From Ruminococcus sp. (GTDB lineage: Bacteria > Bacillota > Clostridia > Oscillospirales > Acutalibacteraceae): a stretch of 56,303 bases of DNA. The stretch lies in the NCBI GenBank assembly GCA_017384945.1, contig JAFNSO010000018.1:1-56303 (forward strand), in the 5' to 3' direction. Under the pieces are notes generated by a model. The model was not told where the DNA came from. It worked only from the letters and a program-made list of their open reading frames with translations, and did not search any database. How positions within the stretch are numbered: position 1 is the first letter of the stretch; the number at the start of each line of letters is the position of its first letter. Shown in pieces: positions 41,984 to 53,862 of this stretch. The position numbers and the translations under genes were made by a program.

Positions 41984-44077
41984 TCAGACTCCGAAGAGCA
42001 TTTCGCCGTAGCTGGGATAAGGCCAGTAGTCGGACGCGGTCTGGGTTTCCATATCGTCGCCGATCGCTCTGAGCGCCTGCATATCGGCGAACACAACGTT
42101 GCAGTAGAAGTCGGCGTAAGCCTGCATATCGTCGGAGAGCTCGCCTGCTTTGATAAGGTCGTTTTCGAGCTCGCTTACCTTGTCGGCAAAGCATACGAGC
42201 TTTTGGCTGAGGTCGGTTACGAGCTTTGTTTCGAGCGATACGGGGATCTCCTCGGACAGCGCTCTCTTGGCGAGGGCTGTGTCGGTAAGCTCTCTGACGT
42301 ACTCGGTAACGGCTGGGATGATGTCCTTTTTCGCCATATCTATCATCGTAAGAGCTTCGATGTTTATTAGCTTCGCGTAGTTTTCGAGCTCAACCTCGTA
42401 TCTCGCGTTAAGCTCCTGCTCGGTGAATACTTCGTTTTCCGTAAAGAGCTTGATGTTCTTTTCGCTGTCATAATGCTTTAACGCCTCGGGGACGCTTTTG
42501 AGGTTCAAAAGCCCGCGTCTTTCGGCTTCCTTGACCCACTTGGCGGAGTAGTTGTCGCCGTTGAAGATGATCCTGTCGTGCTGCTTGAAGATCCTCGCGA
42601 CGAGTCTCTTTGCCGCAGCCTTTACGTCCTTGACCTGCTCGAGTCTGTCGGCGAATTCCTTGAGCTCCTGAGCTACGATTGTGTTTATGATGATGTTCGC
42701 GCTGGCGATGTTCGACGCAGAGCCGAGCATTCTGAACTCAAAGCGGTTGCCCGTGAACGCGAAGGGCGAGGTTCTGTTGCGGTCGGTGGTGTCCATTCTG
42801 AGTGAGGGAAGAACCTCTACGCCGAGGTCCATATCCTCGAGTCCCTCGCTCTCGTACTCCTCGCCGACCTCGATCGAGTGAACGACCGCGTCGAGGTCGT
42901 CGCCGAGAAATACCGAGAGGATCGCGGGGGGCGCTTCGTTGGCGCCGAGACGGTGGTCGTTGCCCGCGGAGGCTACGGAAATTCTGAGCAGATCCTGATA
43001 CTCGTCGACCGCCTTGATAATAGCGGCGAGGAAAACGAGGAATTGCAGGTTTTCCGCGGGGTTCTTACCCGGCTTCAGGAGGTTTTCGCCCGTGTTGGTC
43101 GAGATCGACCAGTTGTTGTGCTTGCCCGAGCCGTTTACGCCCGCGAAAGGCTTTTCGTGAAGCAGACAGACGAGGTCGAACTTCTCGGCGGTCTTTTTGA
43201 GTATTTCCATCATAAGCTCGTTGTGGTCAACGGCTACGTTGGTTGTTGTGAAAATCGGAGCGATCTCGTGCTGTGAGGGAGCGACCTCGTTGTGCTTTGT
43301 CTTGGCGTAAATGCCGTACTTCCACAGCTCTATGTCGAGCTCCTTCATAAACTCGGCTACGCGCGTTTTGATTGAGCCGAAGTAGTGGTCGTCGAGCTCC
43401 TGACCCTTCGGAGCCTTTGCGCCGAAAAGCGTTCTGCCCGTGTAAATGAGGTCGGGGCGGGCGTCGTACATCTTTTTGTCAATGAGGAAGTACTCCTGCT
43501 CGGGGCCGACGGTGGTTGTTACCCTGTGAACGTCGGTTTTTCCGAGAAGGTGAAGCACACGCACTGCTTCCTTTGATATTCTCTCCATCGAGCGGAGAAG
43601 AGGGGTCTTTTTGTCGAGCACCTCGCCCGTGTACGAGGCGAAGGCGGTCGGGATATACAAAGTTCCGTCTCTCGCGAAGGCAGGCGAGGTCGGATCCCAC
43701 GCGGTGTAGCCTCTTGCCTCGAAGGTCGCGCGGATTCCGCCGTTCGGGAAGGAGGACGCGTCGGGCTCGCCCTTTATGAGCTCCTTGCCGCTGAAGGTCA
43801 TGAGCACCTTGTCGTCGCCGTCGGGAGTGATGAAGCTGTCGTGCTTCTCGGCGGTTATGCCCGTGAGAGGCTGGAACCAGTGGGTGTAGTGGGTGCAGCC
43901 CTTCTCGATAGCCCATTCCTTCATGGCGTGAGCCACAGCGTTGGCTACGCTGTCGTCAAGGGTCTCGCCGTCGTGGACGGTCTTTTTGAGAGCCTTGTAG
44001 ATGGGCTTTGGGAGTCTTTCCTTCATTACGTCGTCGTTAAAGACGTTGCTGCCAAACAGCTCGGGAACATTTATCAT
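41984..44077 (-). CDS. glnN: Glutamine synthetase type III
   Basis: The 697-residue protein is of GSIII size. Signatures are [15 protein letters not shown] near residue 165, [18 protein letters not shown], the catalytic stretch [20 protein letters not shown], and [21 protein letters not shown]. It joins ammonia to glutamate. The start is ATG 44077 behind AAAGGAGAG; the upstream open frame runs through the leader terminator and is not coding. The leader carries an ANTAR-type antiterminator and an intrinsic terminator, and the ANTAR regulator is encoded divergently, so nitrogen control by antitermination is likely, as described for clostridial glnA with NitR. Confidence 0.95.
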
Positions 44078-44098
44078 CTGATTCTCTCCTTTTGGGGT

Positions 44099-44150
44099 AA
44101 AAAAGATACAGCGCCGCAGGGAATTTCCCCACAGCGCCTTTGCTGTTATC
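44099..44150 (-). promoter_or_regulatory. ANTAR-type antiterminator and intrinsic terminator in the glnN leader
   Basis: On the minus strand ACAGC (44146-44142) can pair with the nearby GCTGT (44135-44131), leaving the six-base loop AAAGGC, with A at position 1 and G at position 4 as in ANTAR target hairpins. The same ACAGC, extended by GAT (44150-44148), can instead pair with a second GCTGT-ATC (44112-44105) that runs directly into TTTTTT, giving an intrinsic terminator. The two folds exclude each other. The second hexaloop of the classical two-hairpin motif is not seen. Confidence 0.72.
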
Positions 44151-44157
44151 AATTGAA

Positions 44158-44385: not shown

Positions 44386-44955
44386 ATGAAAAACGCATTG
44401 ATTGTTTCTAAAACCGAATCGGGAATTAAGGCGATATCCTCTCTGCTTAAAACGGAGGATTTTGATGATGTCGCCTGCACTCTTTCGGTCGACGACGCGC
44501 GTGAGAAGGTCAGGGACGATTTGTTCGACCTAATTGTTATCAATACTCCGCTCGACTGCGAGACAGGGCTTGAGTTTTCCGTCGAATGCGCCGGGGCGAC
44601 AAAGGCGTCGGTCATTCTGATCGTCAGACAGGACAAGGCGGACAAGGCGTTTGAGCTCGTCGCGGGGAAGGGCGTGCTTGTAATCAGCAAGCCGCTCAAC
44701 AAGCACCTTTTTCATCATTACATAATCTTCACCCGCTGTTTTAAGGAGCGTCTGATTCCCGCTTACGAGGAAAACGAAAAGCTCAAATCCGAGATGGAGG
44801 AAATGAAGATTATAAACAGGGCTAAGCTTCTGCTTATTCAGTGTCTCTCTATGACCGAGACTCAGGCGCACAGCTACATTGAGCGTCAGGCGATGAATAT
44901 GCGCAAAAGCAAGCTCGAAATCGCGAAGCAGGTCATCAAGACCTACCAAAACTGA
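44386..44955 (+). CDS. ANTAR-domain antitermination regulator (NitR-like)
   Basis: The 189-residue protein has an N-terminal response-regulator-like fold (KNALIVSKTESGIKAISSLL, then DDLFDLIVINTPLD) in which the phosphoryl-acceptor Asp position reads INTPLD, so phosphorylation may not apply. A coiled segment (EENEKLKSEMEEMKI) follows, and residues 130-187 are the RNA-binding ANTAR domain (INRAKLLLIQCLSMTETQAHSYIERQAMNMRKSKLEIAKQVI). ANTAR proteins bind hairpins with A1/G4 hexaloops to prevent termination, and such a hairpin lies in the glnN leader about 240 bases away. The target is inferred from that match and the divergent layout. Confidence 0.88.
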   Translation: MKNALIVSKTESGIKAISSLLKTEDFDDVACTLSVDDAREKVRDDLFDLIVINTPLDCETGLEFSVECAGATKASVILIVRQDKADKAFELVAGKGVLVISKPLNKHLFHHYIIFTRCFKERLIPAYEENEKLKSEMEEMKIINRAKLLLIQCLSMTETQAHSYIERQAMNMRKSKLEIAKQVIKTYQN

Positions 44956-45001: not shown

Positions 45002-46081
45002 ATGAGCCGAGACGCGTACCTGATTTTGGAAAACGGTAAATACTTCAAGGGTAAGGCATTCGGTGCCGAGAAGGAAACCACGGGAGAGCTTGTTTTTACA
45101 ACGGCTATGACAGGCTATCTTGAAACACTCACCGACCCGAGCTATTTTGGTCAGGTGGTTATTCAGACATTCCCTCTTATCGGTAACTACGGGGTTATTC
45201 CCTCTGATTTCGAGAGCAAGGCTCCCGCTTTAAAAGCTTATATTGTCAGAAACTGGTGCCAAGCTCCCAGCAACTTCCGTTGTGAGGGTGATCTTGACAC
45301 TTTTTTAAAAAGCGCAGGCATTCCCGCGCTCTATGACATCGACACCCGCGCTCTTACAAGAATCGTAAGAGAATACGGCGTTATGAATTGCAGGCTTACA
45401 TACTCGCTCGACAACCTCGAGAGTGTCGTTGAGGAAATCAAGCCCTACAAGGTCGAAAAGGCGGTAAGCTCAACCTCGACAGAGAACCGTCAGTTTTACG
45501 AGGCGGAGAACCCCGAGCGCAGCGTCGTGCTCATCGACTACGGCGCTAAGCACAACATCGGCAGAGAGCTCGTAAAGCGCGGCTGCAACCTCACGGTTGT
45601 TCCGTACAACACAACGGCGGAGGAGATTCTTTCGCTCAATCCCGACGGAATTATGCTTTCAAACGGCCCCGGAGACCCGCAGGAAAACGTTGAGGCTATC
45701 GAAACCCTCAAAAAGCTCTGCGAAAAGAAAATCCCGACCTTCGGAATCTGCCTCGGACATCAGCTGCTCGCGCTCTCACAGGGAGCGAAAACCGAGAAGC
45801 TTCACTACGGTCACAGAGGAGCCAACCAGCCCGCCAAGGAGATCAAGACCGACAAGGTTTACATCACCTCTCAGAATCACGGCTACGCGGTTATCAACGA
45901 CTCCGTCCCCGAGAATGCCGAGGTCAGCTTTGTAAACGGCAACGACGGAACCTGCGAGGGTATCACATACACCGATATGCCCGCTTTCTCCGTTCAGTTC
46001 CACCCCGAAGCCTGCGGAGGCCCCAAGGACACTGCCTTCCTCTTCGACAGGTTTATAAATATGATTGACGAAAACAAGTAA
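45002..46081 (+). CDS. carA: Carbamoyl-phosphate synthase small subunit
   Basis: The 359-residue protein has the CarA N-terminal domain (YLILENGKYFKGKAFGAEKETTGELVFTTAMTGYLETLTDPSY) and a class I glutamine amidotransferase with the nucleophile Cys in FGICLGHQLLALS near 248 and the His-Glu pair in SVQFHPEACGG near 330. It provides ammonia from glutamine to CarB for carbamoyl phosphate (pyrimidine and arginine synthesis). The site is GGAAAGGAAG. I found no PyrR-type leader. Confidence 0.96.
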   Translation: MSRDAYLILENGKYFKGKAFGAEKETTGELVFTTAMTGYLETLTDPSYFGQVVIQTFPLIGNYGVIPSDFESKAPALKAYIVRNWCQAPSNFRCEGDLDTFLKSAGIPALYDIDTRALTRIVREYGVMNCRLTYSLDNLESVVEEIKPYKVEKAVSSTSTENRQFYEAENPERSVVLIDYGAKHNIGRELVKRGCNLTVVPYNTTAEEILSLNPDGIMLSNGPGDPQENVEAIETLKKLCEKKIPTFGICLGHQLLALSQGAKTEKLHYGHRGANQPAKEIKTDKVYITSQNHGYAVINDSVPENAEVSFVNGNDGTCEGITYTDMPAFSVQFHPEACGGPKDTAFLFDRFINMIDENK

Positions 46082-46120: not shown

Positions 46121-49100
46121 ATGCCGTTAAAATCAGATATAAAAAGAGTTATGGTAATCGGCTCGGGCCCGATCGTAATCGGTCAGGCAGCCGAATTTGA
46201 CTACGCGGGAACGCAGGCGTGCCGCGCGCTCAAGGAGGAAGGACTCGAGGTTATCCTCGTAAACTCCAACCCCGCGACAATTATGACAGACAACGCTATG
46301 GCGGACAAGGTTTATATCGAGCCGCTTACTCTTGAAATAGTAAAGCGTATCATTATAAAGGAGCGCCCCGACTCTCTGCTCTCGACCCTCGGCGGTCAGA
46401 CAGGTCTCACGCTCTCGATGCAGCTCGCGAAGGAGGGCTTCCTCGACAAGTACGGGGTAAAGCTTCTCGGCGCTGTCCCTGAGACGATCGACAAGGCGGA
46501 GGACCGCCAGATGTTCAAGGACACTATGCTCGAGATCAACCAGCCCGTCATCCCCTCGACCGTCGTTAACGACGTTGAGGCGGCAGTCGCGTTTGCCGAC
46601 GAAATCGGTTATCCCGTAATCGTTCGTCCCGCCTTTACGCTCGGCGGAACGGGCGGCGGCATAGTCGACGACGAGGAGGAGCTCAGAGAGATCTGCTCAA
46701 ACGGACTCGAGCTTTCTCCGATTACCCAGTGTCTTATCGAGAAGTGTATCTCGGGCTGGAAGGAAATCGAGTTTGAGGTAATGCGCGACTCGCTCGGCAA
46801 CGTTATTACCGTCTGCTCGATGGAGAACTTCGACCCCGTCGGCGTTCACACGGGCGACTCTATCGTAATCGCTCCCGCTGTTACTCTCGCCGACAAGGAG
46901 TATCAGATGCTCCGTTCCGCGGCGCTCGACATTATCTCTGCGCTCAAGGTTGAGGGCGGATGTAACTGTCAGTTCGCGCTCAATCCCGAGACCTTTGAGT
47001 ACGCGGTGATCGAGGTCAATCCCCGTGTTTCGCGTTCCTCGGCGCTCGCTTCAAAGGCTACGGGCTATCCTATTGCGAAGGTAGCGGCTAAAATCGCTAT
47101 CGGCTATACTCTCAACGAAATCAAAAACGCGGTCACAGGCTCGACCTACGCGTGCTTCGAGCCCGCGCTCGACTATGTTGTAGTCAAGCTCCCCAAGTGG
47201 CCCTTCGATAAATTCGTATACGCTAAGCGCTCGCTCGGCACACAGATGAAGGCGACGGGTGAGGTTATGGCGATCGCCCCGACCTTTGAGCAGGCGATTA
47301 TGAAGGCTGTCAGAGGCGCGGAGATTTCCCACGACACTCTCGACGACGAGATGTTCGAGGAAATGACAAACGAGCAGATCGTCGAGAGACTGAGCGTTTG
47401 CGACGACCTCAGAATGTTCTGTGTTTACGAGGCGTTGAAGCGCGGAATTTCCGTTGACCTGATTCACGAAATCACACTCATTGACGAGTGGTTCTTAAAT
47501 AAACTCATTTACATCGCCGATATGGGCGAAAGACTCAGAGAGGGCAGATTCGACGAAGAAACCTACAGACAGGCGAAGGAGCTCGGCTACCTCGACCGCA
47601 CGATCGAGAAGATTAGCGGTCAGAAGGTCGAAAACCCGCTCGTTCCCGTGTTCAAGATGGTTGATACCTGCGCGGCTGAGTTCAACGCCGAGACGCCCTA
47701 CTTCTACTCGACCTTTGATGAGGAGAACGAGGCTGAGCTCTTTATAAAGGAAAAGAACTCCGATAAAAAGACGGTTATCGTATTCGGCTCGGGTCCCATC
47801 AGAATCGGTCAGGGTATCGAGTTCGACTACGCCTCCGTTCACTGCGTATGGGCTCTCAAAAAGGCGGGCTACGAGGTCGTCATTGTAAACAACAACCCCG
47901 AGACCGTTTCCACCGACTTTGATACTGCCGACAGGCTTTACTTTGAGCCGCTTACAACTGAGGACGTTATGGGCATTATCAAGACCGAGAAGCCCTTCGG
48001 CGTTGTCGTCGCCTTCGGCGGTCAGACTGCTATCAAGCTTACCCAGTTCCTCGACGAGAGCGGAGTCAACATTCTCGGAACCTCCTACGACGCTATTGAT
48101 ATGGCTGAGGACAGAGAGCGCTTTGACGAGCTTCTGGAGCAGCACCACATCGCCCGCGCGAAGGGCGTTACCGTTATGACTAAGGACGAGGCTCTTGAGG
48201 CCGCCAACCGAATCGGTTATCCCGTGCTTCTCCGTCCGTCCTACGTGCTCGGCGGTCAGAATATGATTATCGCTTTCAACGACGCTGACGTTGATGAATA
48301 TATGGACATCATTCTCGCTCAGGAGATTGAAAACCCGATTTTGATCGACAAGTACCTCATGGGTACCGAGCTTGAGGTCGACGCTATCTGTGACGGCGAG
48401 GACATCCTTATCCCCGGTATTATGGAGCACGTCGAGCGCTCGGGCGTTCACTCGGGTGACTCTATCGCGGTCTATCCCGCGTGGAACGTCACCGACGAGA
48501 TGACGGACATCATCATAAAGGCGACCCGCAACCTTGCGCTTTCGCTCAAGACAAAGGGTCTCGTCAATATTCAGTACATCGTCTACAACGGCGAGCTCAA
48601 CGTAATCGAGGTCAATCCCCGTTCGTCTCGTACAATTCCTTACATCAGCAAGGTTACGGGCGTTCCGATGGTCGATCTCGCGACAAAGGCTATGCTCGGC
48701 GAAAAGCTCTCCGATATGGGCTACGGTACGGGTCTTTACAAGAAATCTCCCTATTTTGCCGTCAAGGTTCCCGTGTTCAGCTTTGAAAAGCTCATTAACG
48801 TTGACAACCACCTCGGCCCCGAGATGAAGTCCACGGGCGAGGTCCTCGGCGTGGCGGGAACTCTCGAGGAGGCTCTTTACAAGGGTCTTATCGGAGCGGG
48901 CTACAAGATGAAGCGCGGCGGCGGAGTTCTGGTCACAGTCAGAGACTCCGACAAGGCGGAAATCGGCGACATCGTCAAGAAGTACGCCGATATGGGCTTC
49001 AAGATTTACGCGACAAAGGGTACCGCGAAGGTGCTTGAAACATATAACATCGACTCCGCTGTTGTCAGCAAGATCCACGAGAACGACAGCGCGAACACAC

Positions 49101-50173
49101 TCACTCTCATTGAGAGCGGCGAGATCCAGTATGTTATCTCGACCTCGGCAAAGGGCAGGATCCCCAGCCGCGACTCGGTTAAGATCCGCCGCAAAACCGT
49201 TGAGCGCAACATTCCCTGTCTAACCTCGCTTGACACAGCCAACGCTCTCGCCGACTGCCTGAGAAGCCGTTATTCTCAGGTCAGCACTGAGCTCGTCGAC
49301 ATCAACAACATGCGCAGCGAGAAGATGATGCTCAAGTTCACCAAGATGCAGGGCGCGGGCAACGACTACATTTATTGCAGCACCTTTGATCAGGAAATCA
49401 ACAACCCCGAGGCGCTTTCTGTTCGCCTTTCCGACCGTCACTTCGGTATCGGCGGCGACGGAATCATCCTTGTCTGCCCGTCCGAGGTAGCCGACGCGAA
49501 GATGCGTATGTTCAATCTTGACGGCTCCGAGGGTAAAATGTGCGGCAACGGAATCCGCTGCGTCGGAAAATTCCTGTATGACCATAATATGCTCGACATT
49601 AAGGAGCGCGACGAGTTTACGGTCGAAACGCTCAGCGGCGTAAAGAACCTCAAGGCGTACACTCAGGACGGAGAGGTCACAAAGCTGCGCGTCGATATGG
49701 GCAAGGCGGAGCTCAACCCCAAGCTCATTCCCGTTCTTTGCGACAAGGACAGAATGATTGACGAGGAGGTCACGATCGGCGGAAAGAAATACAACGTTAC
49801 CTGCGTTTCGATGGGCAATCCGCACTGCGTTGTATTTGTCGATAACGTCGACGGACTTGATATTGAGAAGGTCGGCCCCGAGTTTGAAAACGACCCGATT
49901 TTCCCCGAAAGAGTCAACACCGAGTTCATCAAGGTTCTCAACGACCGCACAATCAAGATGCGCGTCTGGGAGCGCGGCTCGGGCGAGACATGGGCGTGCG
50001 GAACAGGCGCCTGCGCCGTAGCGGTTGCCGCGTGTGAAAACGGCTTCTGCAAAAAGGGCGAGGATATTACGGTCAAGCTCAAGGGCGGCGATCTCGTAAT
50101 CAACTACACCGACGACACCGTCTATATGACGGGCGAAGCGCTCAAGACCTTTGAGGGTGAAATCGAAATCTGA
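46121..50173 (+). CDS. carB-dapF: Fusion: carbamoyl-phosphate synthase large subunit (CarB) - diaminopimelate epimerase (DapF)
   Basis: One uninterrupted frame of 1350 codons. Residues 1-1066 are a complete CarB: ATP-grasp half 1 (VIGSGPIVIGQAAEFDYAG near 9), half 2 (VFGSGPIRIGQGIEFDYAS near 555) and the allosteric domain ending near LTSLDTANALADCLRSRY. Residues 1069-1350 are a complete DapF: LKFTKMQGAGNDYIY, first catalytic Cys in MCGNGIRCVGKF, second in ACGTGACAVA. There is almost no linker. The codon at 49325 is an ATG in a tandem ATGATG behind GCGAGAAG, so separate DapF might also start there; a TGA in the +1 frame overlaps it. CarB makes carbamoyl phosphate; DapF makes meso-diaminopimelate for lysine and peptidoglycan. 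dapL follows. Confidence 0.9.
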   Translation: MPLKSDIKRVMVIGSGPIVIGQAAEFDYAGTQACRALKEEGLEVILVNSNPATIMTDNAMADKVYIEPLTLEIVKRIIIKERPDSLLSTLGGQTGLTLSMQLAKEGFLDKYGVKLLGAVPETIDKAEDRQMFKDTMLEINQPVIPSTVVNDVEAAVAFADEIGYPVIVRPAFTLGGTGGGIVDDEEELREICSNGLELSPITQCLIEKCISGWKEIEFEVMRDSLGNVITVCSMENFDPVGVHTGDSIVIAPAVTLADKEYQMLRSAALDIISALKVEGGCNCQFALNPETFEYAVIEVNPRVSRSSALASKATGYPIAKVAAKIAIGYTLNEIKNAVTGSTYACFEPALDYVVVKLPKWPFDKFVYAKRSLGTQMKATGEVMAIAPTFEQAIMKAVRGAEISHDTLDDEMFEEMTNEQIVERLSVCDDLRMFCVYEALKRGISVDLIHEITLIDEWFLNKLIYIADMGERLREGRFDEETYRQAKELGYLDRTIEKISGQKVENPLVPVFKMVDTCAAEFNAETPYFYSTFDEENEAELFIKEKNSDKKTVIVFGSGPIRIGQGIEFDYASVHCVWALKKAGYEVVIVNNNPETVSTDFDTADRLYFEPLTTEDVMGIIKTEKPFGVVVAFGGQTAIKLTQFLDESGVNILGTSYDAIDMAEDRERFDELLEQHHIARAKGVTVMTKDEALEAANRIGYPVLLRPSYVLGGQNMIIAFNDADVDEYMDIILAQEIENPILIDKYLMGTELEVDAICDGEDILIPGIMEHVERSGVHSGDSIAVYPAWNVTDEMTDIIIKATRNLALSLKTKGLVNIQYIVYNGELNVIEVNPRSSRTIPYISKVTGVPMVDLATKAMLGEKLSDMGYGTGLYKKSPYFAVKVPVFSFEKLINVDNHLGPEMKSTGEVLGVAGTLEEALYKGLIGAGYKMKRGGGVLVTVRDSDKAEIGDIVKKYADMGFKIYATKGTAKVLETYNIDSAVVSKIHENDSANTLTLIESGEIQYVISTSAKGRIPSRDSVKIRRKTVERNIPCLTSLDTANALADCLRSRYSQVSTELVDINNMRSEKMMLKFTKMQGAGNDYIYCSTFDQEINNPEALSVRLSDRHFGIGGDGIILVCPSEVADAKMRMFNLDGSEGKMCGNGIRCVGKFLYDHNMLDIKERDEFTVETLSGVKNLKAYTQDGEVTKLRVDMGKAELNPKLIPVLCDKDRMIDEEVTIGGKKYNVTCVSMGNPHCVVFVDNVDGLDIEKVGPEFENDPIFPERVNTEFIKVLNDRTIKMRVWERGSGETWACGTGACAVAVAACENGFCKKGEDITVKLKGGDLVINYTDDTVYMTGEALKTFEGEIEI

Positions 50174-50294: not shown

Positions 50295-51494
50295 ATGGAA
50301 ATAAACAGAAACTTTGACAACCTGGTTCCTAACTATCTCTTCGCTGAGGTAGCAAAGAGAACCAACGAATTCATCAAGAACAATCCCGACAAAAAGGTGA
50401 TCAAGCTCGGCATAGGCGACGTTACTCTTCCGCTTGCTCCCGTTGTTGTGGAGGCGATGAAGCATGGCGCCGAGGAGCTCGGCAAAAAGGAAACCTTCAA
50501 GGGCTACCCCGACTACGAGGGCTACGAGTTTTTGCGTGAGGCTATTTCGGATTATTACAAGAGCTTCGGCGTTAAGGTCGCGGCCGACGAGATTTTCGTC
50601 TCAGACGGCGCAAAGTCCGACTGCGGAAACATCGGCGATATCTTCGGCAAGGACAACACCGTCCTCGTCACAGACCCCGTTTATCCCGTTTATGTCGACA
50701 GCAACATTATGGCGGGACGAGAGATCGTATACGCCAACTCCAACGAGAAGAACGGCTTTGCCGCTATGCCTCCCAAGGATATCAAGGCGGACATAATCTA
50801 TCTTTGCTCGCCGAACAACCCCACGGGCTCAGCCTACACCTACAACGAGCTCGAGGCGTGGATTGAGTACGCGCTCGAAAACGACGCGATCATTCTTTAC
50901 GACGCGGCTTACGAGGCGTTCATCACCGAGGAGCTTCCTCGTTCGATCTTCGCCGTTGAGGGCGCGAGAAAGTGCGCGATCGAGTTCTGCTCGCTCTCCA
51001 AGACCGCGGGCTTTACGGGTACCCGCTGCGGCTACACCGTTATCCCCAAGGAGCTCGAGCGCGACGGTCATAACCTCAACAAGCTCTGGTACCGCCGTCA
51101 GGCGACCAAGTTCAACGGCGTTTCGTGGCCTGTTCAGCGCGGCGCGGCGGCTGTTTTCAGCGAGGAAGGTCAGAAGCAAATCAGGGAGAACATCGCATAC
51201 TATCAGGAGAACGCGAGAATTATCTCCTCCGCGATGGACGAGCTCGGAATCTACTACACGGGCGGAAAGAATTCCCCCTACATCTGGCTTAAATGCCCCG
51301 GCAAAATGGACAGCTGGGAGTTCTTCGATTATCTTCTCGAAAAAGCCAACGTTGTCGGCACCCCCGGAGAGGGCTTCGGCGCGAACGGCGCGGGCTATTT
51401 CAGACTCACCTCCTTCGGTGACAGAGAAAGCACGATCGAGGCGGTCGAGAGGATCCAGAGACTTTTGTCAAAAAAGCTTATTGATAACGTATAA
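50295..51494 (+). CDS. dapL: LL-diaminopimelate aminotransferase
   Basis: The 399-residue class I/II PLP aminotransferase has KLGIGDVTLPLAPVVVEAM, SDGAKSDCGNIGDIFG, CSPNNPTG and the PLP Lys in SLSKTAGFTGTRCGY near residue 236. GDVTLPL and SDGAKSD are typical of DapL, which turns tetrahydrodipicolinate directly into LL-diaminopimelate. DapF, fused to CarB just upstream, then epimerises it to the meso form. The AGGAGG site is excellent. A terminator follows. Confidence 0.95.
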   Translation: MEINRNFDNLVPNYLFAEVAKRTNEFIKNNPDKKVIKLGIGDVTLPLAPVVVEAMKHGAEELGKKETFKGYPDYEGYEFLREAISDYYKSFGVKVAADEIFVSDGAKSDCGNIGDIFGKDNTVLVTDPVYPVYVDSNIMAGREIVYANSNEKNGFAAMPPKDIKADIIYLCSPNNPTGSAYTYNELEAWIEYALENDAIILYDAAYEAFITEELPRSIFAVEGARKCAIEFCSLSKTAGFTGTRCGYTVIPKELERDGHNLNKLWYRRQATKFNGVSWPVQRGAAAVFSEEGQKQIRENIAYYQENARIISSAMDELGIYYTGGKNSPYIWLKCPGKMDSWEFFDYLLEKANVVGTPGEGFGANGAGYFRLTSFGDRESTIEAVERIQRLLSKKLIDNV

Positions 51495-51696: not shown

Positions 51697-53862
51697 TTAA
51701 TGATTTGCGATGTGTTCTGCGTATTCTTCAAAGTTGAATGCGCAGCCGTCAAATTCGGTGTAGCCCGCATAAATAGTTTCACCGCTTTTGAGCGTTATGA
51801 AGAACCTCGCGCAGATCGTTCCTCCGTCCTCGGGGATATCGTTTACCGCGGCGGTGACGTACTTGTAATCGGTGGAACCGAAGTCTGCTGAGCCGTAGCC
51901 TCCCTCGCAGAAGGTGTTGGATGTTCCCGCGCAGCTGTAGATGTGATTAGCGTTCTCTACAGTGAGGTTTCCGACGCTCTGCTTTGCGGTCGCGCAGTTC
52001 TTGGAGGTGAGGGTGAAAATGTATCCGTAGTCCTCGACGTCGTCGCTTGAGAGGATTTGAGAGTTGACGACGGTTATGAAACGGACGTCGCGTTTGGATA
52101 TGTCTGTTTTGAGCTGGACTCCAAGCAGGTCGAGCGAGGTGTAGCTTTTTGAATCGCTTTCAAAGAATTTAGTGATATTTGTGTCAACGTCGCTTGTGGC
52201 GTCGAAGGTCTTTTTGTTCAAAGCGGGGATGATTATTTCATCAGGCGTGATTTCGGTGTAATCGTTATCCGTTAGGGTGTAGAGATTGCCGTCGCTTCCC
52301 TCGTAGTATTCGATGTTGCCGTCGGATGTGACTGTCGCGTCCTTTTTCTCGACGAGCGTGTATTCTATGGGGGTGTCAACCCAGCTTGCGGTCAGGGTGT
52401 AATTGTGCTTTTCGGGGCTTAAAGCCATAGTGTCGTTCGGCTGATAAAGATTGCCGTCTTCGTCTGTCCAGCCGCCGAACATCTTTCCCTCGGGCGCCGT
52501 GAAGCCGCTGTCGGGGAGGAGATAATCGGTGTCGGCGGTGATTACGCTCTCCATTTCGCCCGAGCCGTCTCCCGCGTTGAAGCTGATTGTATATATCGTT
52601 TGGAAGGTGTACAGCTCAACCGATGTTTTATCATTATTGGGATTATCAGCCTCAAGACCGTACAGCTTTCCGTCCTTTTCATACAGACCGTAAAGCTGAT
52701 TGCCGTCGTTGAGAACATTATCGAGTAAGGTTGCTTTTGTGTCCGTTAAAGGGTCATAGACGTATACGCAGTTTTCGCCGTTGAAGTAGAGCAGACCGTT
52801 ATGCTCGGCTATTCCCGAGAAGTTTCCTACCCAATGTGAGTTTCCTCCCGCGCTCCAAATATCGCTTATCTCCAGCTTGTCATCAAATGTATCGTTCTCG
52901 TGATTATATACGCCGATGTATCCTTTGTTGTCTTTCTTGTAGAGAGTGTACAGCCCGCCGTTGATGTAGTACATTGCGTTATCAAGACTGTGAAGATTGT
53001 CGTATTCGTCGTATTTATCGTCGGAAGCGTTTATGTATTCGTAATCTGTATGAGCTTCATATCTGTATGTAGCGTCATCTGTATTCTGAAATTCATCATC
53101 ACTGAGCAGAAAATATGAGTGAGAAACCTTTCCCGGTCTGTCGGAGCCGTCTTTATTTACCGGATCATCATAGGTAAGATCGACATTGTAGTAATAGTCG
53201 GAGTCGTCGAGCTTCAGCTTCATCCACTCGTGATTCATTTCATCCGAGTTGATGATTTCACTCTTGATTCCTACCTGAGCGAGCAGATATGCGTAGCACT
53301 CGGCGTAGTTTTCGCATCTGCCCCACCCCTCAACCATAAGGGTATAGTTGTTGCTGTTCTCTTTCAGATAGGCGCTGTTGAGCGCGAGCTGATCATGCAG
53401 AACGAGCGCCTTTGTGAATTCGTCCATGCTGTCATCAAGACAGGCGAGGTATTCGTCCGCCTTCGCGTAGAACTCGGAAAGCTTTTCGTCCGTTTCATCG
53501 GCTGTGTATATATATTGCGGCTTTATCGCGGTGAGAATGCTGCCCCTGCTTGAATAGCTGTAACTGTAGTCGACAAAGAAAAGCTCGGGATAAACACCTA
53601 TTGAAGCTGAAAATAATGAAGAGTGTTCGGAAACGGGTATTCGGTATTGAGCAATGTTTATTGACTCTTCGTGGTTCATATAACCCGCGTAGAGCGCTTC
53701 CAGTACATCTGTATGATTGTTTACATATTCGGGATCGCTCGAGATTTCCAATTCGGTGATCATTCCCGGAAGCGTTCTTTCAGCCGCGAACGCGGAAATC
53801 GGGAATACACCCGAAAGCAGAATAACACTCAAAAGAATCGCTGCCGTGCGCTTAAAATTCAT
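51697..53862 (-). CDS. Secreted transglutaminase-like protein with List-Bact-type repeat
   Basis: The 721-residue protein has a signal peptide (residues 1-27, ending AFAAE), a transglutaminase-like domain with Cys183 (GWGRCENYAECYAYL), His211 (EMNHEWMKL) and Asp228 (NVDLTYDD), the expected triad, then a beta-propeller-like segment (about 285-440, with repeats of the type LYFNGENCVYVYDP and LYGLYEKDGKLYGLE). A List_Bact/InlB-type repeat (ISFNAGDGSGEMES...MFGGWTDEDGNLYQPNDTM...YTLTASW) and a C-terminal beta domain follow. It may be a protease or crosslinker acting on cell-surface or dietary protein; the reaction is not known. The start has AAGGAGG upstream. Confidence 0.85.
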   Translation of the reverse strand: MNFKRTAAILLSVILLSGVFPISAFAAERTLPGMITELEISSDPEYVNNHTDVLEALYAGYMNHEESINIAQYRIPVSEHSSLFSASIGVYPELFFVDYSYSYSSRGSILTAIKPQYIYTADETDEKLSEFYAKADEYLACLDDSMDEFTKALVLHDQLALNSAYLKENSNNYTLMVEGWGRCENYAECYAYLLAQVGIKSEIINSDEMNHEWMKLKLDDSDYYYNVDLTYDDPVNKDGSDRPGKVSHSYFLLSDDEFQNTDDATYRYEAHTDYEYINASDDKYDEYDNLHSLDNAMYYINGGLYTLYKKDNKGYIGVYNHENDTFDDKLEISDIWSAGGNSHWVGNFSGIAEHNGLLYFNGENCVYVYDPLTDTKATLLDNVLNDGNQLYGLYEKDGKLYGLEADNPNNDKTSVELYTFQTIYTISFNAGDGSGEMESVITADTDYLLPDSGFTAPEGKMFGGWTDEDGNLYQPNDTMALSPEKHNYTLTASWVDTPIEYTLVEKKDATVTSDGNIEYYEGSDGNLYTLTDNDYTEITPDEIIIPALNKKTFDATSDVDTNITKFFESDSKSYTSLDLLGVQLKTDISKRDVRFITVVNSQILSSDDVEDYGYIFTLTSKNCATAKQSVGNLTVENANHIYSCAGTSNTFCEGGYGSADFGSTDYKYVTAAVNDIPEDGGTICARFFITLKSGETIYAGYTEFDGCAFNFEEYAEHIANH

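Follow-up and report, generated by a model that had tools for sequence, protein, structure and literature searches.

Here we report that the genes for the large subunit of carbamoyl-phosphate synthase (CPS), carB, and for diaminopimelate (DAP) epimerase, dapF, are joined in one open reading frame on contig JAFNSO010000018.1 of Ruminococcus sp. (assembly GCA_017384945.1), whose 56,303 nucleotides were analyzed as a whole and are referred to below as the window. Comparison of genomes establishes that this fusion is widespread and of single origin, and that the first catalytic cysteine of its DapF domain has changed repeatedly while the DAP-binding pocket was kept. On these patterns we regard it as evenly balanced whether, across the family, the DapF part has been kept for the binding of DAP, perhaps with a regulatory function, next to the allosteric domain of CPS. 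Only tentatively do we propose that in about ten or more lineages the epimerase has become a DAP sensor that sets the synthesis of pyrimidine and arginine precursors, and that may replace uridine monophosphate (UMP) as effector in one large clade. Both halves belong to known families; we found no description either of their fusion or of the repeated loss of the cysteine. An earlier note on this DNA, made from its letters alone, knew of no described CarB-DapF enzyme; this agrees with our search of open-licence PMC full text, which returned no publication on a CarB-DapF fusion or on control of CPS by DAP.

The fused gene and its reality

The carB-dapF gene of the window occupies positions 46121..50173 of the plus strand as a single frame of 1350 aa with an ATG start, so that the in-frame fusion, its coordinates and the short linker reported by the earlier note are upheld. 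Both parts match their NCBIfam families above cut-off, CarB at residues 3-1046 (TIGR01369, 1450 bits, cut-off 1027; the CPS large-subunit identifiers being TIGR01369 and NF003671) and DapF at residues 1072-1348 (TIGR00652, 299 bits, cut-off 114.65). The Pfam domains follow in the order CPS ATP-binding, oligomerization, MGS and DAP_epimerase. The CarB part (residues 1-1064, 46121..49312) is complete through the allosteric MGS domain (PF02142, residues 949-1035, 48965..49225), which was also placed by alignment to E. coli CarB, and is followed by the linker RSEKMM (residues 1065-1070, 49313..49330) and by the DapF domain (residues 1071-1350, 49331..50170; PDB relatives 2otn, 9mro, and 3ejx). E. 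coli CarB (1bxr/1jdb) has the same complete domain order through MGS but ends after the allosteric domain, at the point where the window protein adds a full DapF.

The fused gene was found in 34 of 59 genomes, namely the window's own and 58 relatives. Thirty of the 34 have single full-length matches with 60-97% identity, and in the other four the gene is either in two pieces of one frame (G036 and G040) or cut by contig ends (G023 and G018). At the order level (own genome and genomes at least 90% complete, n = 297) the fusion is present in at least 96 genomes, i.e. at least 94 with matches reaching well into DapF plus G036 and G040, and at the phylum level in at least 17 of 398 genomes, own included. 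It occurs in three single-contig genomes (G223, G497, and G521), and 79 of the 80 named-genome loci listed keep one frame over the junction, several of them cut by contig ends; the frame is broken in one (L244). Three fused records, Ruminococcus sp. FC2018 (L204), Neglectibacter sp. X58 (L211), and Treponema sp. C6A8 (L238), are not labelled as metagenome-assembled genomes (MAGs), and the closest named record among the matches listed is uncultured Ruminococcus sp. RUG14250 (L202) with 91.5% identity. A plasmid collection was also searched and gave no match.

The window assembly is a draft of 106 contigs, and a sequencing or assembly artifact joining two genes, such as the indel near the junction that the note had named as a possible refutation, has to be considered. 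The same frame, however, recurs across the genomes listed above, including the single-contig ones and the records not labelled MAG, and 119 of the 120 non-redundant fusions, a set that includes the window, share the same linker length. An artifact is thus rejected, its probability being practically negligible. A linker with a seven-residue insertion was seen at loci L045 and L046 (G140 and G106).

Within the genus of the window (g1), 22 of 36 genomes are fused, own included, 13 have an unfused, distant CarB, and one (G035) is unclear; by this comparison the fused gene has been replaced or lost inside the genus. The CarBs of the 13 unfused congeners are merely 48-58% identical, and 11 of these genomes have a separate DapF listed.

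Origin of the fusion

A FastTree phylogeny of 148 CarBs sharing less than 88% identity (120 fused and 28 unfused), rooted on a distant CarB type, places the fused proteins in one clade with a support of 100, in which a single unfused row (G037) is nested; two changes in total explain the distribution. In a DapF tree of 162 rows, likewise, the switch between the fused and the separate state has to occur twice. The CarB clade is explained by one ancient fusion with one nested loss, in G037. In unfused relatives CarB stops at about residue 1064, where the linker starts (e.g., ...ELVDITKI; some are a few residues longer), and no dapF lies behind the nearest unfused CarBs in 20 loci, 18 of which have about 1.5 kb and two about 0.2 kb of downstream sequence.

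The junction carries a tandem ATGATG at 49325-49330 with an overlapping +1-frame TGA at 49326, just as the earlier note described, but the two conclusions drawn from it there are not supported. Production of free DapF from this internal start was suggested, yet only 28 of the 120 fusions have any start codon at window residues 1066-1072 (ATG in 22, GTG or TTG in six, none in 92), and none of the Shine-Dalgarno-like strings scanned for precedes the window ATGATG; a conserved internal DapF start is therefore not supported. The TGA was taken as a relic of an overlapping gene pair. Since any ATGATG holds a TGA in that frame, it is uninformative on such an ancestry, and the nearest unfused CarBs have no dapF behind them.

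Five rows from treponemes and spirochaetes group together as a clade of their own within the fused proteins, with a support of 100, and this nesting speaks for horizontal transfer. The rumen Treponema and Spirochaetaceae fusions (L232, L243, L224, L237, and L238), one of which is not labelled MAG, have all lost the first catalytic cysteine of DapF. The fused gene was also seen in bins named Treponema and Synergistaceae (L178, L186, and L228), for which transfer or mis-binning may be the explanation.

In G010, a congener of the window genome without the fusion, dapF directly follows the gene for an unfused CarB that belongs to the distant type (L272, G010:C75:4312-8287). Here the carB stop TAA, with GGAGG just before it, is separated by one base from the ATG of dapF. 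Judging from this locus, carB and dapF came together at least once more, and the G010 pair, having the other CarB type, is not the ancestor of the fusion. Separate dapF genes were also noticed near some fusions, close to the 3' end in L053, L203, and L208, where they share 60-62% identity with the DapF domain of the fusion, and 2-3 kb downstream in G308 and G190.

Repeated change at the first catalytic cysteine

The catalytic pair of Corynebacterium glutamicum DapF is formed by Cys83 and Cys221, and the substitutions C83A and C221A almost abolish activity, as does alanine at N15, N74, N85, N159, N194, E212, R213, or T223; the enzyme closes on its ligand and dimerizes via a conserved interface (passages of PMC5296763). 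We placed these ten residues by motif, using C. glutamicum numbering, and the spacings round both cysteines agree. The window domain has all ten: Cys1141 (49541..49543; C. glutamicum Cys83, Haemophilus influenzae Cys73) and Cys1293 (49997..49999; C. glutamicum Cys221), as well as the eight DAP-binding residues, in agreement with the note, which held the key residues to be present. It shares them with the DapF proteins of C. glutamicum (5h2g/5m47) and H. influenzae (1bwz). These DapF proteins are free-standing, whereas that of the window is fused, and the first cysteine is missing in 78 of the 120 non-redundant fusions.

The fused relatives as a group thus do not possess both cysteines. Among 177 fused proteins the first position is C in 78, A in 64, G in 25, S in six, and F in four, and in the non-redundant set it is kept in 42 proteins (hereafter Cys-kept) and replaced in 78 (Cys-lost) by Ala (54), Gly (17), Ser (6), or Phe (1). 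Three further fusions (G154, G177, and G040) keep the first cysteine and have lost the second. The state of the first cysteine has to change 12 times on the CarB tree, with 10 or more of these changes forced by well-supported branches, and 13 times on the DapF tree, although such counts, taken from FastTree trees only, give by themselves no direction of loss versus gain. We read the changes as losses because the cysteine is catalytic and separate DapFs possess it.

The pocket around the lost cysteine is kept. In the 78 Cys-lost fusions the equivalents of N74, N85, N159, N194, E212, R213, and T223 remain in 77, 76, 75, 76, 77, 77, and 75 proteins, respectively, so that seven of the eight DAP-binding sites are unchanged in 96% or more; the N15 equivalent is N in 61, D in 15, and S in two. 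The second cysteine is kept in 75 of the 78. The 39 copies with both cysteines have 66 conserved positions in common, and Cys1141 is the only one of these that none of the 78 retains. The ratio of nonsynonymous to synonymous substitution rates (dN/dS), calculated for pairs that share rows and are not independent, has a median in the DapF domain of 0.056 for 134 Cys-kept pairs, 0.125 for 18 Cys-lost pairs, and 0.258 for three mixed pairs; the corresponding CarB medians are 0.044, 0.054, and 0.122. By this measure the constraint on the Cys-lost domain is relaxed yet still strong and purifying.

These data bear on three other explanations. The fusion could be a plain bifunctional enzyme that keeps the levels of CPS and DapF linked without any cross-talk, the Cys-lost copies being slowly decaying relics. 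The window protein, in which neither cysteine nor any mapped binding residue is missing, suits this explanation, as do the near doubling of DapF-domain dN/dS after cysteine loss, the loss of the domain in G037, and the occurrence of a dapL match downstream in Cys-kept loci only (13 of 41, versus 0 of 68 Cys-lost, counting non-redundant loci with enough flank). A relic would be expected to truncate or to shed its pocket residues, whereas every Cys-lost domain that is uncut by a contig end is full length, seven of eight pocket sites are kept in 75-77 of 78 proteins, dN/dS is still 0.125, and the domain persists through a whole clade of 52 rows. We consider this explanation unlikely.

Some members of the DapF/proline-racemase superfamily catalyze one-base reactions, and the Cys-lost domain might likewise have turned to a different one-base chemistry. 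The retention of the second cysteine in 75 of 78 proteins is more than a binding-only site would need, and the replacement of N15 by Asp in 15 of 78 points the same way. Against it, the variety of residues at the first position includes no single new catalytic residue, nearly all Cys-lost fusions retain seven of the eight DAP-binding residues, and no new neighbor gene was identified in the downstream open reading frames of the six loci inspected. Such a change of chemistry is very unlikely.

Finally, the DapF fold, itself dimeric through a conserved interface, might simply hold CPS molecules together, the ligand being irrelevant. CPS has an oligomerization domain of its own (passages of PMC6245113), and retention is no stronger in the pocket than at other conserved sites; N194, E212, and R213, however, are not obviously required for the fold and are kept in 76-77 of 78 proteins. 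We regard a purely structural role as quite unlikely.

Other routes to meso-DAP

Of 109 fused genomes, 105 (40 Cys-kept and 65 Cys-lost) were searched for other routes to meso-DAP. A separate DapF is present in 6 of 40 Cys-kept and 47 of 65 Cys-lost genomes. The meso-DAP dehydrogenase Ddh was found above cut-off in 15 of the 18 Cys-lost genomes without a separate DapF versus 16 of the 47 with one (p 6e-4), a partial match below cut-off in G119 being counted as none. Taken together, a separate DapF or Ddh is available in 62 of 65 Cys-lost versus 23 of 40 Cys-kept genomes (Fisher 2.6e-6), an association that rests on clades. All 42 separate DapFs that were read, including 28 from the 47 Cys-lost genomes having one, possess the first cysteine; by pattern match the second is in place in 37, in another place in one, and found nowhere in four. 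In 15 of 37 both-cysteine genomes the fused DapF is the sole meso-DAP route found and presumably is active there.

The 15 Cys-lost genomes with Ddh and without a separate DapF gave no DapL or DapH above curated cut-offs, the succinylase route not being included in the search. A partial DapL-like match in G067 scored 317 bits (cut-off 365), and aminotransferases of G139, G312, and G088 scored 402-414 bits against TIGR03540 (cut-off 593). That the LL-DAP route is wholly absent from these genomes is thus only partly shown.

The allosteric domain and known systems

We take N1015 and T1017 of E. coli CarB to be residues of the nucleotide site. Effectors of E. coli CPS bind to its allosteric C-terminus, residues 933-1073, in which T977 and K993 matter for UMP (passages of PMC6245113). 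By alignment to E. coli CarB, the window equivalents are T968 for T977, K984 for K993, and S1007/S1009 for N1015/T1017. At the last three positions the 42 Cys-kept fusions have K in 41, S in 40, and S in 42, and 26 Cys-lost rows are similar (K 24, S 25, S 26), whereas the large Cys-lost clade (52 rows, support 100) has K in only 12, Y in 46, and G in 50. At the T977 equivalent these three groups have T in 38 of 42, 24 of 26, and 51 of 52 rows, respectively. The coincidence of an altered nucleotide site with a Cys-lost DapF in one large clade could mean that the effector has changed, or that this CPS serves arginine alone and has escaped control by UMP.

CAD and other CPS fusions join CPS with another enzyme, and CAD joins consecutive steps of pyrimidine synthesis. 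Here, in contrast, the partner belongs to lysine and peptidoglycan synthesis. To our knowledge, human CPS1 has no DapF. It is switched by N-acetylglutamate at its C-terminal part (PMC4655335), and the switch proposed for the fusion would likewise be C-terminal, with a different ligand and a different domain.

A proposed role for the DapF domain

In the scenario that we favor, retention of DapF as a DAP-binding domain, the ancient in-frame fusion that placed DapF behind the C-terminal MGS domain of CarB would have been retained for a second job of the DapF domain, that of binding DAP beside the allosteric one. If the domain closes on its ligand as C. glutamicum DapF does, this movement might act on the MGS domain, and DAP binding could thereby tune carbamoyl-phosphate synthesis to the supply of wall precursors. 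The epimerase step may then have been dropped in many lineages through loss of the first cysteine, leaving a binding-only domain, in genomes whose meso-DAP came from a separate DapF or from a meso-DAP dehydrogenase.

Several observations weigh against this scenario. Besides the undirected change counts, pocket sites are not better kept than other conserved DapF positions (median 0.974 versus 0.987), so there may be a structural reason for their retention. The Cys-lost domains are under relaxed selection, with the mixed pairs reaching the highest dN/dS, and the G037 lineage could dispense with the domain altogether. The association between alternative routes and cysteine loss is not significant on independent pairs (5-7 pairs), and pairs scored for a separate DapF alone split evenly (1.2 versus 1.2). 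Three Cys-lost genomes have no other route found: G256, which is 99% complete and has DapL; G295, which is 91% complete and has a congener (G136) with a separate DapF; and G062, whose fused gene is cut at a contig end and whose congeners G038 and G077 have separate DapFs. The same holds for G177 and G040, which lost the second cysteine and kept the first, while G154 has Ddh. Finally, the 26 Cys-lost rows that lie outside the large clade have mostly retained the residues of the UMP site, so that an effector swap would be at best partial.

If the proposal is true, common rumen and gut bacteria would possess a direct allosteric wire from wall-precursor supply to nucleotide and arginine supply, a link that would make physiological sense as wall building uses uridine nucleotides. 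An enzyme would also have turned many times into a ligand-binding domain via loss of a single catalytic residue, and the separate DapF or Ddh encoded in the genomes hints at how that loss could be afforded. For annotation, a DapF match on the fused gene of a Cys-lost genome cannot safely be counted as an epimerase.

Genomic context in the window

The gene row of the window is carA-carB.dapF-dapL, all on the plus strand. The CPS small (glutaminase) subunit, the partner of CarB, is encoded by carA at 45002..46081 (359 aa; TIGR01368, 455 bits, cut-off 307). Among the 115 non-redundant fused loci with sufficient flanking sequence, 104 have a carA match upstream in the same orientation. The LL-diaminopimelate aminotransferase gene dapL, which the earlier note had placed downstream, is indeed found at 50295..51494 (399 aa; TIGR03542, 515 bits, cut-off 365). 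No separate DapF beyond the fusion was found in the window genome, an 89.5% complete draft, which also carries Ddh (G000:C20). With all ten DapF residues kept, a dapL able to supply LL-DAP, and no other DapF found, the window protein is probably bifunctional, with both its CPS and DapF halves active.

On the minus strand, positions 51697-53862 encode a 721-aa protein without a Pfam match at E 0.001. Before carA lie a type III glutamine synthetase gene on the opposite strand (41984-44152) and a gene for an ANTAR-domain protein with a response-regulator-like N-terminus that scores below the Pfam cut-off (44386-44955); an ANTAR match occurs upstream of the fusion in 12 of 40 Cys-kept versus 0 of 75 Cys-lost loci.

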